DNA of 64,000 bases. Source: Haloferax sulfurifontis ATCC BAA-897 (GTDB lineage Archaea > Halobacteriota > Halobacteria > Halobacteriales > Haloferacaceae). The DNA is taken from the NCBI RefSeq assembly GCF_000337835.1, contig NZ_AOLM01000029.1:1-64000 (forward strand), written 5' to 3'. Positions 5,460 through 62,638 of the stretch are shown one piece after another (within the stretch, counting starts at the first letter, position 1; every line of letters begins with the position of its first letter). A program made the position numbers and the translations under genes. The notes beneath the pieces are model-generated. The model was not told the origin of the DNA and searched no databases. It saw nothing but the letters and a program-made list of their open reading frames with translations.

Positions 5460-5650
5460 GAGTTACCCGAACGCACACCCCCAGTCACGAGTGAAAGTCC
5501 TGACTCGTCTACTATGACAACACACACCCAGTGTGCGAAGTGTAAATACGCACTACTCCTACGCAAGAGCCCTTCATGAGTAATCTTCTCTTCCCCAATT
5601 ATTCATCTTGCACACGGGGTACTGAACCGTACTTGAGCGTGTCTCTTGTT
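5460..5650. repeat. Paralogous segment, copy 1 (with CxxC mini-ORF)
   Basis: This segment downstream of the small gene at 5650-5969 is similar to 18465-18637. On the plus strand both encode the tail CAKCKY followed by a basic stretch. Here it is a complete 21-aa ORF at 5514-5579. In the other copy an upstream stop leaves no start codon. It may be a relict of a zinc-binding protein or merely conserved DNA of the duplicated module. Confidence 0.5.
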
Positions 5651-5969
5651 CACCCGTCCTGATTGACTGGGCCTTTATACTTCGACTTGATTTTGTCCCC
5701 CTCTCTCCATGCCAGTAGTAGTATCGGTTGTCGTTGATCTCTTTGACAGTGATCGTCGCCTTCGTGGGGACATCGTCTGGAAGGTCGTCCGACCGTTCTT
5801 CGAGCTCGCCTTCCGGTGACTCGTCCTCGAGACGAGCCTCGCGCTCCTTGTGTTCGGCCAGTGCTTCGGCATAGTGGACAACGTCTCGAAGGCGGGTCGG
5901 CCCCAACTCATTGAGAGCGTTGACGACTTCCGTGGGGAGGTTCGGCGGCGTTGGTGGTTCGTAGGACAT
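5650..5969 (-). pseudogene. Frameshifted copy of the small acidic protein gene at 18638-18961
   Basis: The protein starts MSYEPP at 5969. It matches the intact copy through EVVNALNELG, EDESPEGELEER and DVPTKATITVKEINDNRYYYW. Near 5709 a single base is missing relative to the 18.7-kb copy. Restoring it gives GDKIKSKYKGPVN and a stop at 5650-5652, as in the other copy, whereas the uncorrected frame runs on to 5574. The function is unknown. The ATG lies just downstream of the bipartite operator at 5986-6026. Confidence 0.75.
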
Positions 5970-5985: not shown

Positions 5986-6026
5986 TTAACCAACACAAGT
6001 CGCTAATCAAAAGTTTTGTTGGTTAA
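5986..6026. promoter_or_regulatory. Bipartite operator TTAACCAACA-N21-TGTTGGTTAA, copy 1
   Basis: The perfect half-sites TTAACCAACA (5986-5995) and TGTTGGTTAA (6017-6026) are separated by exactly 21 bp. This gives 31 bp between half-site positions, about three helical turns. The same pair with the same spacing recurs at 18978-19018 and 61848-61888. It lies 16 bp upstream of the minus-strand small gene and 190 bp upstream of the HTH gene at 6216, so it could control both. Confidence 0.75.
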
Positions 6027-6215: not shown

Positions 6216-6761
6216 ATGACTGAGGATACGCCGTCTCCGCCGGACATGAATCTGGCCGGAGAGTGGGACAAAGCAGTCGAGAGCCGGACGGTCAAAGATC
6301 GTGTGTATGAAGCAGTAACGACGCTCACGTCGACGACCACTGTTGCAGATGTCGCAGAACGTGCTGACTGTACAAAAGAAGGCGCACGTCCTCATCTCGA
6401 GTGGTTCGTTGACGTCGGAGTGCTCGAAAAAGTCGCCGACAATCCTGCGCTCTTCGTTCGCAATGAGGCCTACTTTGAGTTCCGTCGTATCACGGAACTG
6501 ACCCGGGAGCTCAATACACCAGAAGCGGCTGAGGAAGCAATCGACGAGTACCGAGCCCGAGAACAGGAGCTCTCGAGTTACTTTGAGGAATCCTCGCCTG
6601 AGGCAGTTGTCCTTTCCGAGACGACGTACGACGATCTCGATGAGGCGTACGATAGACTGAGTGAATGGCGAACTGTCACTCGCCGCCTTCGTGAACTCCG
6701 AGAAGCCAAATTCCGTCTCGAATCAAATGTCAGTGGAAGTCCTGCCTCCTCGTTTCCCTAA
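6216..6761 (+). CDS. Haloarchaeal HTH protein (DUF7342-like), candidate antitoxin
   Basis: This 181-aa protein has a winged-helix domain near residues 25-85 (VADVAERADCTKEGARPHLEWFVDVGVLEKV) and then a long helical, coiled-coil-like C-terminus. It is clearly homologous to the protein at 61981: both share the Y-F-E-(F/W)-RRI segment after the winged helix. The gene ends 5 bp before the TumE-like gene, indicating an operon. A protein of this kind next to a TumE-like partner is probably the DNA-binding antitoxin. The upstream bipartite operator is its best candidate binding site. Confidence 0.75.
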   Translation: MTEDTPSPPDMNLAGEWDKAVESRTVKDRVYEAVTTLTSTTTVADVAERADCTKEGARPHLEWFVDVGVLEKVADNPALFVRNEAYFEFRRITELTRELNTPEAAEEAIDEYRAREQELSSYFEESSPEAVVLSETTYDDLDEAYDRLSEWRTVTRRLRELREAKFRLESNVSGSPASSFP

Positions 6762-6766
6762 CCTCG

Positions 6767-7252
6767 ATGGGACGCACAGATGACCTCAACGAAGAACGGA
6801 TGCGAATTCTCGGTGGTCGACTCGCAGATCTCTCGGTAACCGAGACCGTCCAGTACTTCCCGTCTGGAAAGGAAGACCGTGTTGTTGCCACTCTCCAGTC
6901 GAGTTACTATCCCGACGTCGTGGATACTGCTACTCTCGAAATCCGTCTTCGACTGAATGGTGAGTTCAATATCCAGTATTTTGAGGAATGGGCTGGTGAG
7001 CGCTGGTCGTGTCGATGGGACCGCCACCCGAATACACACAACACACGCGACCACTACCACGTACCACCCCAGCCGCGAGAAGAGAGTGCGGTCGATGCAG
7101 TCTACCCAGAAGATCCGAATGACGTGCTTCGGATGGTTCTTGAGACGATAGAGAAACGAATCAACGATATCTGGGCGACAACAGATCCGATTTTCCCGTC
7201 AGAATACGAGTTCAAACAGGAGTACAGTGCAGACTACCTCGTGGACACGTAG
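6767..7252 (+). CDS. TumE-like (DUF6516-type) putative toxin
   Basis: This 161-aa protein has a central beta-rich part (ATLEIRLRLNGEFNIQYFEE, about residues 56-75) followed by SCRWDRHPNTHNTRDHYHVPP. This resembles the RWD...PHH...H signature of the TumE/DUF6516 family, RNase-like toxins paired with TumA-type antitoxins. The C-terminus DPNDVLRMVLETIEKRI is shared with the gene remnant at 63311-63439. The gene sits 5 bp after its HTH partner. Family assignment is from motif recall, and the catalytic activity is inferred. Confidence 0.6.
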   Translation: MGRTDDLNEERMRILGGRLADLSVTETVQYFPSGKEDRVVATLQSSYYPDVVDTATLEIRLRLNGEFNIQYFEEWAGERWSCRWDRHPNTHNTRDHYHVPPQPREESAVDAVYPEDPNDVLRMVLETIEKRINDIWATTDPIFPSEYEFKQEYSADYLVDT

Positions 7253-7261
7253 CGCAGTTTG

Positions 7262-7414
7262 TCACTCTGGACGCACAACGTCATCGCATGAATAGCACTC
7301 TGCAAACACGCCAGTTGTCCCATCGGCGTCCTCAAACTCAATGAGCGACTGATATGCCTCAATCTCTTCGCCGCAATCAGGACACCGACCAAGTACTGTT
7401 GAATCAGTCGTCAT
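7262..7414 (-). CDS. Small zinc-ribbon protein
   Basis: This 50-aa protein is too short for most gene callers. It starts MTTDSTVLGRCPDCGEE and ends ECYSCDDVVRPE, giving two C-x2-C pairs about 28 residues apart, which should bind one zinc. It converges with the TumE-like gene, with 9 bp between stop codons. A close copy at 19281 (minus) has lost the stop codon. The conservation of start, cysteines and length between the copies supports a real gene. Its function is unknown; nucleic-acid or protein binding is possible. Confidence 0.75.
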   Translation of the reverse strand: MTTDSTVLGRCPDCGEEIEAYQSLIEFEDADGTTGVFAECYSCDDVVRPE

Positions 7415-7520
7415 AGGGGAGTGAGAGACGTGTGTGACACAGATTGTCTCCAGTAGCAGCCACGCAGGGCGATAGCAAAGATGTTTGGCCAGAATAACTA
7501 TTTACCCAATACATTCATGA

Positions 7521-18977: not shown

Positions 18978-19018
18978 TTAACCAACAATCGACGCTAATC
19001 AAAAATTTTGTTGGTTAA
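18978..19018. promoter_or_regulatory. Bipartite operator TTAACCAACA-N21-TGTTGGTTAA, copy 2
   Basis: The half-sites at 18978-18987 and 19009-19018 are separated by exactly 21 bp, as in the other copies. The core between the half-sites is closely related to copy 1 (GCTAATCAAAA in both). Here the HTH gene that follows the operator elsewhere has been deleted. Confidence 0.75.
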
Positions 19019-19281
19019 ATTGATGACACCGACTTCCTGCTTCGCGCTAGGTTACAACGTGCTGCGACGCATCGTCCAACATTCGGGCGCAAGCATAGAC
19101 CTCCTCGTGGACAAGTAGCGCCAGTTCGCCACTCTGGGCGGACAACTTCGTCGCATGAATAGCACTCTGCGAACACGCCAGTTGAGCCATCGCTATCCTC
19201 AAACTCGATGATCGACTGGTATGCCTCAGTCTCTTCGCCACAGTCAGGACATCGACCAAGTATCGTCGAATCACTCGTCAT
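19015..19281 (-). CDS. Zinc-ribbon protein with read-through tail
   Basis: The first 50 residues match the 50-aa zinc ribbon at 7414 (GRCPDCGEE, then ECYSCDEVVRPE), giving two C-x2-C pairs. The stop codon TGA of that copy is TGG here, so the frame continues for 38 residues (beginning WRTGATCPRGG) through what was the opposite-strand end of a TumE-like gene and into the operator. The tail is probably not a selected sequence. The zinc-binding part could still be functional. Confidence 0.6.
   Translation of the reverse strand: MTSDSTILGRCPDCGEETEAYQSIIEFEDSDGSTGVFAECYSCDEVVRPEWRTGATCPRGGLCLRPNVGRCVAARCNLARSRKSVSSI
19041..19118 (+). pseudogene. 3' remnant of a TumE-like gene
   Basis: Plus-strand reading ends in DLLVDK and a stop at 19116-19118, in the position of SADYLVDT at the end of the TumE-like gene at 7252, and the DNA after the stop is similar in both loci. 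The rest of the HTH and TumE-like genes is missing, so a deletion of about 1.1 kb has joined the operator to this tail. Confidence 0.5.
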
Positions 19282-19370
19282 AGGGGAGTGTGGAGACGCA
19301 TGTGATACTGTTCTGTTGTAGATAGAGATGAAGCCACTTCACGAAGGAAGTAGAAAGTTGAGTACGTTCT

Positions 19371-31000: not shown

Positions 31001-31859
31001 AGAGGAGGAAGAGAAAAACGCGGACACCACCTCGCTATTTGGAGATTCCGGGGCAACTGAGCCGGAAGAACCAGTCAGTGAAGAAGAGGAGACTGCCGTT
31101 GAGGAGACTGGGTCGTCACCAGTACAGGCAGGTGGTGTAACCGTTCCAGATGACGAACTCCAGCGGCGCGAGCTCACGCACGACGATGTCCGATTCCTAA
31201 CCCGCATCCTCGACGTGATGAATGGTGACACACCAAATCACAGACTCTTGGATTCAATGAGTTCGCTCAAGAGCGACTTTGAGGATTTGGATGTGCAACG
31301 GCTCGTCGAGCAAGACCTGCTGGAGGAAGGACGAGCGTGTGGTCGGAAGTACTACACAGTCCTCCCGGCAGGGCGTGAACTCCTCGGTCAGAAGCTCAAA
31401 GTCGGTCCTGGACAGGGGGACATCGGTGAGAAGACACCGCACAAGGTCGGTGTGAAGCTGCTCGAACTGTGGTTAGACTCCCGCGACGACGTCGCACAGG
31501 TCGAGCCGTACTACGAGTACGATGAAGAGACGGTGTTCGACGTTGTCGGTCTCGATGCTGACGGGGAACTCGTGTGGGTCGGTGAAGCCGAACTCGCGAG
31601 TAACAACAAACACGCGCCGGTCGACGACTACGACAAGCAGAGCGCGGTGGACGCGAACGCTGTCTGGGCGTTCAACAGACGCGAAACGGCCGTCGAGGTG
31701 CTGGACCGCCTCGCAGAAGCCGACCGGATAGAAAGCAGTGTGAGCGGGCGTGCAGCCCGCTCGTTCTCGGACATTCGAGAGGCCGTTGAATCGTTCGATT
31801 CACCTGGGCTGACGACGATTCAGAGCTTCAACAAACTTGACGAGGAGTTCAACACATGA
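28029..31859 (+). CDS. VirD4/TraG-like coupling ATPase with C-terminal nuclease-like domain
   Basis: This very large (1276-aa) protein lacks obvious membrane segments. Residues about 490-950 form the ATPase: FASTGSGKSKAIINDAL is Walker A, VVIVDPKGDG follows, LTNLIIEEAAP is Walker B-like, and LSMGLVMQFPGQV is the sensor strand. A Glu/Ser-rich linker (about 970-1060) precedes a C-terminal domain. There, RFLTRILDVMNG and a small winged helix are followed by VFDVVGLDADGELVWVGEAEL, which resembles a PD-(D/E)xK core. Start ATG 28029 has a GGAGG 8 nt upstream. It probably feeds DNA into the VirB4-containing channel, and the nuclease-like tail might process it. Confidence 0.78.
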   Translation: MPEREYLRVTPTSEALTARGIPQTLESLHKLTPDSSGLRSKLNPFTSATPPRFEFLALSTGQDAPVEFYYGADDYLGTLEERLRSIYPKTFDIERVEVDVASKLIHPVALSHEEFVERYQQGDLQYEFTDDEQYSTADAEADATPDGGAMEGTKSEGSPTDADDVGGRTADGLVSVGEIVVELETTDSLADEVSPTSVEKPTVAADGMILARPAVDSVSPRGVRWCGSAVRKQDWMSSLTPLTATPDESTLPAVDEPGAVLASLVDHLNDAREPLAFQVVFQRRESWQADAELRKEDLNDGRDTLSQKILGDLLDPELEYERRTRDELSDIVVKRLDAIDAVNPKRSYTTNIRAIGVPTSEAGRDALDDRLSSLAPVFDPLDGPFYEIEATRLRDRGFRQSKKEQHARAALQRLLSREVTTGRGKTRPELVLCGAELANFILVPSSDQLTVEGTRGTRAEQQSRDPLPWPNPDLVQQFREGMAIGYALDENGSPQQRPIRIPPKLLTTHYGRFASTGSGKSKAIINDALSLRETTGGPVVIVDPKGDGMCANYLRSHYERFNGLDDVYQFRVPETIPAFSFFDIRPALEAGRNRADAIQDKVDHFHDIMRMIMGREQYGQAFVANEILSYLIKALFDEEYGSDVFGLDDLFAAALEMQRERTVPPVSADNRSVEESLTRHFAKDDHQFQVSMDAVGNRLDKLREDAHLRRIFSHVPEQNETGEYVDNRFDFRGFLDEDATILFDLGDLRPEAQRAITLLLLSNLWDAVQVRRRDGNTDYENLTNLIIEEAAPVAATKLVSEQLLPQGRSFGLSMGLVMQFPGQVRNRNERAYDEVLNNIKTKLIGNISIERDLAESLAHEDLSPTDLRNRINTLPSGEWIAQLPSPSFGETGPAPFSVMPLPIAAGHPESDEPLSVEQEDHFETVALPRLSERTQARYGLAETTESETAEDEGWGSRLNDEGSTSVDSTSPTDSAQSSFIGQATSGSAAAEEEEEKNADTTSLFGDSGATEPEEPVSEEEETAVEETGSSPVQAGGVTVPDDELQRRELTHDDVRFLTRILDVMNGDTPNHRLLDSMSSLKSDFEDLDVQRLVEQDLLEEGRACGRKYYTVLPAGRELLGQKLKVGPGQGDIGEKTPHKVGVKLLELWLDSRDDVAQVEPYYEYDEETVFDVVGLDADGELVWVGEAELASNNKHAPVDDYDKQSAVDANAVWAFNRRETAVEVLDRLAEADRIESSVSGRAARSFSDIREAVESFDSPGLTTIQSFNKLDEEFNT

Positions 31860-61400: not shown

Positions 61401-61831
61401 ATGTCTTCTGAACACGAGCAACAGCAATCACGACTCCCTAGCGAGCACACTGAACAACCGAGCGACGAACCGTGGGCAGATCTCGAACTGACGCTCCCGC
61501 ACGGCAGAAGTCGACTGACATCGTCTCATTCGTCGAGTGCACACTCGTCGAACTCACCCACGAAGACGTCGGAGCCGAGTTCGTCTCGGTGAGCGTAGCG
61601 GGCGTGAAGCAGACACAGTTCATCGCCGTCGACGACGTCGGCCAGCGGTTCAAGAAGCGGTATTTCGACGAGCGTCTCGGCTGGCACGAAACGACAGTCA
61701 ACCGTGAAGCGGTTCGTGAGGAGTTGGTCAATCGACTCACACAGCGGTCGTCACTGGGCAGTGGTGTGGGTCAGCCTGGCGTCGTCGACGATCAAGACAA
61801 ATTCCAGGTGATGCCAGTTTCGGAGCTGTGA
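61401..61831 (+). pseudogene. Frameshifted small haloarchaeal protein
   Basis: Translation begins MSSEHEQQQSRLPSEHTEQP at the ATG at 61401 and runs to LELTLPHGR. Near 61508 one A is missing. Restoring it gives GRKSTDIVSFVECTLVELTH, then EDVGAEFVSVSVAGVKQTQF, DVGQRFKKRYFDERLGWHET and so on to a stop at 61831. A 143-aa protein of unknown family would result. Confidence 0.55.
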
Positions 61832-61847: not shown

Positions 61848-61888
61848 TTAACCAACAATAGCACAAGATAATAACGTCTGTTGGTTAA
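61848..61888. promoter_or_regulatory. Bipartite operator TTAACCAACA-N21-TGTTGGTTAA, copy 3
   Basis: Half-sites at 61848-61857 and 61879-61888 are identical to those at 5986 and 18978, with the same 21-bp gap. The core sequence is different, so only the half-sites and spacing are conserved. It is 92 bp upstream of the HTH gene start at 61981, whose own TATA-like CTATAT is at 61953-61958. Confidence 0.75.
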
Positions 61889-61980: not shown

Positions 61981-62508
61981 ATGTCCAACAGCGAGTCTCC
62001 AAATGGCCCGTCCGCATTCGACGATGCGTTTCGTGGCGACGACGTTGAACAACGCATCTACGGGACCATTCTCCAGACTCGCGAGCCGACGACGGCGAGC
62101 GCCATCGCCGACGTTGCCGACTGTGACCCGAAAACGGCTCGGAAATATCTGGGCTGGTTCAGTGAACTCGGTATCGTCACGCGCCACGACGGTCACCCGG
62201 CCACGTACGAGCGCAACGACGCCTACTTCGAGTGGCGGCGAATCAACCAGCTCGCGGCCGACCACTCCATCGAAGACCTCCAGCAGCGTGTTCGGGAACT
62301 GAGCTCGCGGATCGAGGCGTACGAGGACACGTATGGTGCTCCGACGCCAGCGGCCGTCGACGCCGTCACCGCTGCCGAAGCGAGCGACGACCGGACAATT
62401 GATGATATATACGGTGACCTCGGCAATTGGGCGACTGCGCTCGAGGAACAAACACGCTACGAACGTGCCCGTCAGCAACGCGTCAGTATCGACTCCCAAG
62501 GAATATGA
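61981..62508 (+). CDS. Haloarchaeal HTH protein (DUF7342-like), paralogue of 6216
   Basis: This 175-aa protein has a winged helix at about residues 20-80 (SAIADVADCDPKTARKYLGWFSELG), then FEWRRINQLAAD, and a long coiled-coil C-terminus. It is homologous to the HTH gene at 6216 (Y-F-E-(F/W)-RRI segment). The following TumE-like partner is missing at its expected place; instead a MITE, a ruined doc and a TumE-like 3' fragment follow. A CTATAT box is 23-28 nt upstream of the ATG. Confidence 0.75.
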   Translation: MSNSESPNGPSAFDDAFRGDDVEQRIYGTILQTREPTTASAIADVADCDPKTARKYLGWFSELGIVTRHDGHPATYERNDAYFEWRRINQLAADHSIEDLQQRVRELSSRIEAYEDTYGAPTPAAVDAVTAAEASDDRTIDDIYGDLGNWATALEEQTRYERARQQRVSIDSQGI

Positions 62509-62513
62509 CGTCC

Positions 62514-62638
62514 GGCTCTGTTGAATTCCTCTAGCATTGACATTGGGGAGAAGGATGCTTCTCCCGGGGTTCACCAGATACAGTTGGAAACCAGCGTCTC
62601 AGCAAATCGCTAGACAGCGAGAGGGTTTCAACAGAGCC
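62514..62638. mobile_element. 125-bp MITE with IS6-type terminal repeats
   Basis: It starts GGCTCTGTTGAATTCC and ends GGGTTTCAACAGAGCC as inverted repeats. It is 125 bp long and has no ORF. Its position, 5 bp after the HTH stop and 59 bp before the doc start, suggests insertion in an intergenic region. No clear 8-bp target duplication is visible. Confidence 0.75.

Follow-up and report, generated by a model that had tools for sequence, protein, structure and literature searches.

A two-arm DNA element dispersed over haloarchaeal plasmids and viruses, with a 107-residue protein as its candidate reader

The question raised by this stretch of haloarchaeal DNA (the window, 64,000 nucleotides in all) is which protein reads a pair of inverted 10-bp half-sites that recurs in it, and what the pair is for. 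The original prediction held that the pair, with an invariant gap of 21 bp, was an operator bound by the helix-turn-helix (HTH) proteins encoded beside it. The pattern TTAACCAACA-N21-TGTTGGTTAA is indeed present at three loci as an exact match with identical arms (class A sites; Table 1), while no match to the three-copy pattern was found in 100 dinucleotide shuffles and none was expected by chance. The exact half-site occurs six times in the window, always within the three pairs, and a fourth copy of the pair (C29:101524-101564) brings the number in this genome to four, all on one contig of 29.

Table 1. Positions of the sites, genes and remnants discussed, in the window unless another record is named
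Feature	Position	Strand	Context	Evidence
Second 107-aa gene copy	5574..5969	-	frameshifted in the C-terminal domain by a 1-nt deletion	blastn, translation, split match
Class A site 1	5986..6026		16 bp before the ATG of the second, frameshifted 107-aa gene	exact match
DUF7342 HTH protein	6216..6761	+	neighbour of site 1	PF24033, E=5e-19
TumE-like protein	6767..7252	+	downstream of the DUF7342 gene	PF20126, E=0.0047, below Pfam cut-off
Intact class A 107-aa candidate reader gene	about 18638/18641-18961	-		E=2.9e-56
Class A site 2	18978..19018		16 bp before the ATG of the 107-aa gene, intact here	exact match
Remnant	19097..19305		homologous to 7231-7437 (last part of the TumE-like gene plus sequence past it)	blastn, 85% over 209 bp
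Class A site 3	61848..61888		after the stop of the 61472-61831 ORF, 92 bp upstream of the DUF7342 gene	exact match
DUF7342 HTH protein	61981..62508	+	near site 3	PF24033, E=2.6e-23
PhiH1 inverted pairs	L241 12206-12255 and 5631-5680			

The core of the 61848 copy differs from the other two, as had been noticed, because the copies at 5986 and 18978 are duplicates of one locus: the DNA of their gene-plus-site units is 89% identical by blastn. Positions of the site 3 type are kept in other genera, and the core there is not. One copy was also thought to have lost its HTH gene. The loss is real, in that the 209-bp remnant beside the 18978 copy indicates deletion of a gene pair for a DUF7342 protein and a TumE-like protein, and it belongs to this copy, where the gene for a 107-residue protein is intact.

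A class-wide scan found the class A pattern in 261 of 391 haloarchaeal genomes and in 67 of 86 genera, with up to 30 copies per genome, and the reversed control pattern not once in the same 391 genomes. Exact pairs at the fetched loci had gaps of 20 bp (23 pairs), 21 bp (99), 22 bp (79) and 23 bp (13), with a few at 9 to 13 and 18 to 19 bp, and the class-wide scan shows one gap of 32 bp. The invariant gap of 21 bp is thus true of the three copies in the window but not elsewhere, where 20 to 23 bp and rarely 9 to 13 bp are found. Gaps of about 11, 21 to 22 and 32 bp place the arms one helical turn further apart at each step, the short and long ones being rare. Pairs with gaps of 36 to 66 bp on viral contigs were rejected as part of the element since they are rare and the two cases with a core of their own lie in AT-rich contigs. 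Pooling 169 distinct cores, in a count where the ten arm bases are fixed by construction, gave at most about 0.15 bit per position for core and flanks. Eight comparable loci upstream of DUF7342 genes share the arms and the gap, but their cores are no more alike than random pairs (28% versus 30% identity). Because the arms are kept while the cores are as unlike as random pairs, the arms are, judged from sequence conservation, under selection and the core is a free spacer, which supports the proposal that the element is bipartite and binds protein, its inverted half-sites lying about three helical turns from each other.

Class A sites lie mostly on plasmids and viruses. In five genomes reached via complete plasmids, the contig C1, presumably the main chromosome, holds 0 of 21, 0 of 8, 0 of 8, 1 of 11 and 3 of 13 sites, and on viral contigs sites were found in 53 stretches. 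A literature search tied neither half-site to haloarchaea among the best-ranked 20 of 39 and 20 of 24 papers.

The gene for the 107-residue protein adjoins 51 of 224 sites in a tally of neighbours, in most cases starting 14 bp from the site, and at loci chosen by the protein alone the site was 14 bp upstream of the gene in 12 of 12. Strong homologues (E at most 1e-25) were present in 215 of the 261 genomes with sites and in 4 of the 130 without (odds ratio 147), counts that were compiled by hand from scans of the 391 genomes and are partly inflated, both by common ancestry of the plasmids and by the site that the gene has at its promoter. The proportion rises to 170 of 172 for genomes with at least four sites. 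Limiting the comparison to assemblies of two to five contigs, as a control for plasmid content, left sites in 71 of 73 genomes with the protein (mean, 8.2) versus 11 of 41 without it (mean, 0.44), and in 12 such genomes most sites share replicons with the gene. There are 46 genomes with one to six sites and no strong homologue, and four with a homologue but no class A sites, one of which (G158) has sites of a second class. From this linkage, the 107-residue protein appears to be the best candidate reader of class A sites.

The protein gave no match to any Pfam family. An AlphaFold2 model (pLDDT 77.5) predicts helices at 14-22 and 25-53 and strands at 73-79, 82-91 and 94-103, with an acidic linker modelled at low confidence, and the C-terminal domain modelled alone shows the same three strands. 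Searches of the PDB by Foldseek and VIA-align with the whole model and with the C-terminal domain returned nothing above background, which rules out no fold, and a profile search of PDB sequences gave nothing useful. As modelled, a three-stranded sheet attached by a flexible linker could read a 10-bp half-site as a monomer and tolerate changes in spacing.

The C-terminal domain and the half-site change together. A second half-site, TTACCCCACA (class B), forms a scattered family of its own in 23 of 391 genomes, with gaps of 17 to 21 bp and no occurrence of its reversed control in the 391 genomes, and two genomes (G155 and G158) have class B sites and no class A site. Plasmid homologues with TTACCCCACA pairs upstream carry a C-terminal type of their own, GAYITIKETKPGYxYYYWQWRxGxSWKNEYIAPV. 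Of the distinct homologues with a site directly upstream, 45 had class A sites and 12 had class B sites, without any crossover, frameshifted or truncated copies being excepted from the match of C-terminal type to class; these loci were mostly fetched by motif and are linkages rather than random samples, and related plasmids are not independent. A third type, class C, combines a DUF6788-like C-terminal domain with CCTTATGYAWCA-like arms. Alignment links the class A, B and C proteins, and the half-sites share the general form TTA-NNN-(A/C)ACA, with the middle bases varying by class.

The same change is seen between two related haloviruses. ChaoS9 encodes a class A protein and has three class A sites, while PhiH1_250 of PhiH1 has kept the N-terminal domain but has a different C-terminal domain, and no class A site was found in PhiH1. 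The half-site there is TTATCAAACA, in two 13-bp inverted pairs ACCTTATCAAACA-N24-TGTTTGAYAAGGT, one arm with a mismatch; one pair lies directly before the PhiH1_250 operon and the other in the convergent gap between repH and imm. In the pair before the operon, the right arm contains the mapped T8 start, annotated at PhiH1 record position 31672, as expected for autoregulation. A term search of the PhiH1 and ChaoS9 papers found no mention of the repeat. Three further homologues (L247, L248 and L256) have a diverged C terminus (e.g., EIRSKTVER), two of them on chromosome-sized contigs, and inspection of their upstream regions gave no convincing inverted repeat; the chromosomal homologues L247 and L248 probably do something else.

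Placement relative to genes bears on what the sites are for. Only 7 of the 224 sites (about 3%) lie inside called genes, although coding sequence makes up 76% of the loci, the gene calls being from a simple codon-based script and all placement figures approximate. About 60% of placements are tandem. With all sites included, placement equalled the random expectation, and a bias towards stop codons appeared once the 37 sites directly before the 107-residue protein's gene were removed. Of the non-self sites that remain, 51% have a stop codon within 60 bp (21% under random placement) and 14% have a gene start within the same distance (20% under random placement); they number 34 in convergent gaps (26.9 expected) and 26 in divergent gaps (36.6 expected) (P = 0.08). 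A general promoter role was rejected on these figures. Avoidance of starts together with clustering just after stops indicates that the sites are not ordinary operators, and the function originally given to the element holds, if anywhere, at the 107-residue protein's own gene. The tally, which was made at site loci only, also counted an Orc1/Cdc6 gene within three genes of the site at 63 of 224 loci. A winged-HTH protein of about 308 residues (VLRRIELEVLATVDRGDTISELATKLDHSESYLSRAV...) is encoded at 18 of the 224 loci (e.g., L073:5043-5969), and its gene is often divergent from the class A 107-residue protein's gene across a shared site.

Given the non-promoter placement, the bias towards extrachromosomal and viral DNA and the number of copies on each replicon, our best guess as to function is that the sites serve replicon maintenance or organisation. 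We lean towards the reading that the element is the site of an autoregulated 107-residue protein of plasmids and viruses whose dispersed sites serve replicon maintenance. Each half-site would be bound by one C-terminal three-stranded beta domain, and the N-terminal helical domains would bring about dimerisation, holding two such domains through the flexible acidic linker. A linker of this kind could accommodate a free core and inverted half-sites spaced by two, three or four helical turns. The protein would control its own gene through the site over its promoter, while the other sites, which are spaced by several kilobases and lie between genes, for the most part shortly after stops, would mark the replicon rather than promoters, and this marking may serve maintenance through segregation, organisation or pairing of the plasmid.

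The same observations could be read as the work of a global transcription regulator of plasmid genes, a KorA/KorB-like repressor for which the sites would be operators or roadblocks of plasmid and viral promoters. One site over the protein's own promoter, the T8 start inside an arm in PhiH1 and the large share of tandem placements, which puts many sites upstream of something, are what such a regulator would produce, but the non-self sites are depleted at starts and in divergent gaps and enriched at stops and in convergent gaps, and we regard this explanation as unlikely. The sites might instead affect transcription from the 3' side, the bound protein being a roadblock that terminates or insulates a transcription unit, given that half of the non-self sites follow a stop codon within 60 bp; this is improbable, as there are few sites per replicon, most genes are without one and the same element sits on the protein's own promoter.

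The first proposal, an operator bound by the adjacent DUF7342 HTH proteins, seems very improbable. Such genes are near two of the copies in the window, and for one DUF7342 group a site 86 to 106 bp upstream is conserved. The adjacency does not hold in general, however, since a DUF7342-type gene is among the three nearest genes on either side at only about 14 of 224 sites. DUF7342 proteins exceeded the cut-off in 352 of 391 genomes, those with and those without sites alike, with an odds ratio of 4.3 versus 147 for the 107-residue protein; DUF7342 was rejected as reader on these counts, and the proposed binding is probably mistaken. The DUF7342 protein at 6216-6761 is probably an antitoxin-like regulator, and 6216-7252 a probable toxin-antitoxin-like pair of the TumA/TumE type on a haloarchaeal plasmid. 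Near the second DUF7342 gene, an element of about 125 bp (62514-62638) with inverted ends GGCTCTGTTGAA and TTCAACAGAGCC lies just past the end of the gene at 61981. Around 63370 there is also a DHRDVLRLVLDEI segment similar to the C-terminal portion of the TumE-like protein, so the partner gene may be disrupted.

It is highly unlikely that a host-encoded factor (a nucleoid protein, an SMC-like protein or a recombinase) reads the sites with the 107-residue protein's gene as just one target, since this would account for the genomes that have sites and no strong homologue but does not predict that C-terminal domain class and half-site change together.

Taken together, the element and the 107-residue protein seem to form an undescribed system by which extrachromosomal DNA is handled or maintained. 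The segregation of archaeal plasmids and extrachromosomal proviruses, and the way in which they are distinguished, are largely open questions, and our results provide an exact site that can be searched for in genomes, a candidate reader with a known gene and natural variants of both (class A, class B and the PhiH1 type), which opens binding and an effect on plasmid stability to direct tests in Haloferax or Halobacterium. Plasmid- and virus-derived DNA in haloarchaeal assemblies can also be recognised by the motif. Quite possibly, though we would not yet favour so specific a claim, this is an undescribed replicon-maintenance system with two-arm centromere-like sites, a three-stranded-beta reader, no dedicated ParA and mutually exclusive classes defined by the half-site's middle triplet; these classes might represent incompatibility groups of archaeal plasmids.

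KorB of RK2-type plasmids and the ParB/parS systems are likewise plasmid encoded and autoregulated, with many dispersed operator- or centromere-like sites. These are HTH CTPase folds that recognise compact palindromes, whereas a 107-residue protein is too small for HTH and CTPase domains, and its C-terminal domain is predicted to be all beta and has no Pfam match. Arm-type and AP2-like domains read about 10 bp as monomers through a three-stranded sheet of about 45 residues; the C-terminal domain, as predicted, would resemble them in this, and an integrase arm domain came up in the structure search at Z 2.0, which is background level. The class C C-terminal domain matches DUF6788 (PF20586; E=5.7e-9, 36.5 bits versus a gathering score of 27.2), while those of classes A and B gave no match over this gathering score and no other Pfam match, and DUF6788 found no mention in the literature that was searched. 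A classical ParAB partner is not indicated: ParA was not enriched near the 107-residue protein's gene (3 of 37 loci with the gene versus 6 of 118 without), and the idea that the protein is simply a ParA partner was rejected on this linkage, although ParA does lie near the gene in the individual cases of PhiH1 and ChaoS9.

In layout, the closest described parallel appears to be SegB of the Sulfolobales, a ribbon-helix-helix protein that is paired with the ParA-like SegA and reads a 13-bp palindrome on the chromosome, with 83.7% of sites intragenic (PMC12284271). As with SegB (PMC12284271), there is a small archaeal DNA-binding protein, here a candidate, with a site just upstream of the start codon of its operon and further scattered copies. 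In contrast to SegB, the sites described here have two separated 10-bp arms, lie on plasmids and viruses, are intragenic in only about 3% of cases and show no linkage to ParA, and the 107-residue protein has no Pfam ribbon-helix-helix match, with predicted helices followed by three strands. By analogy, we infer a system that would work like SegB, ParB or KorB while being a member of none of these families.
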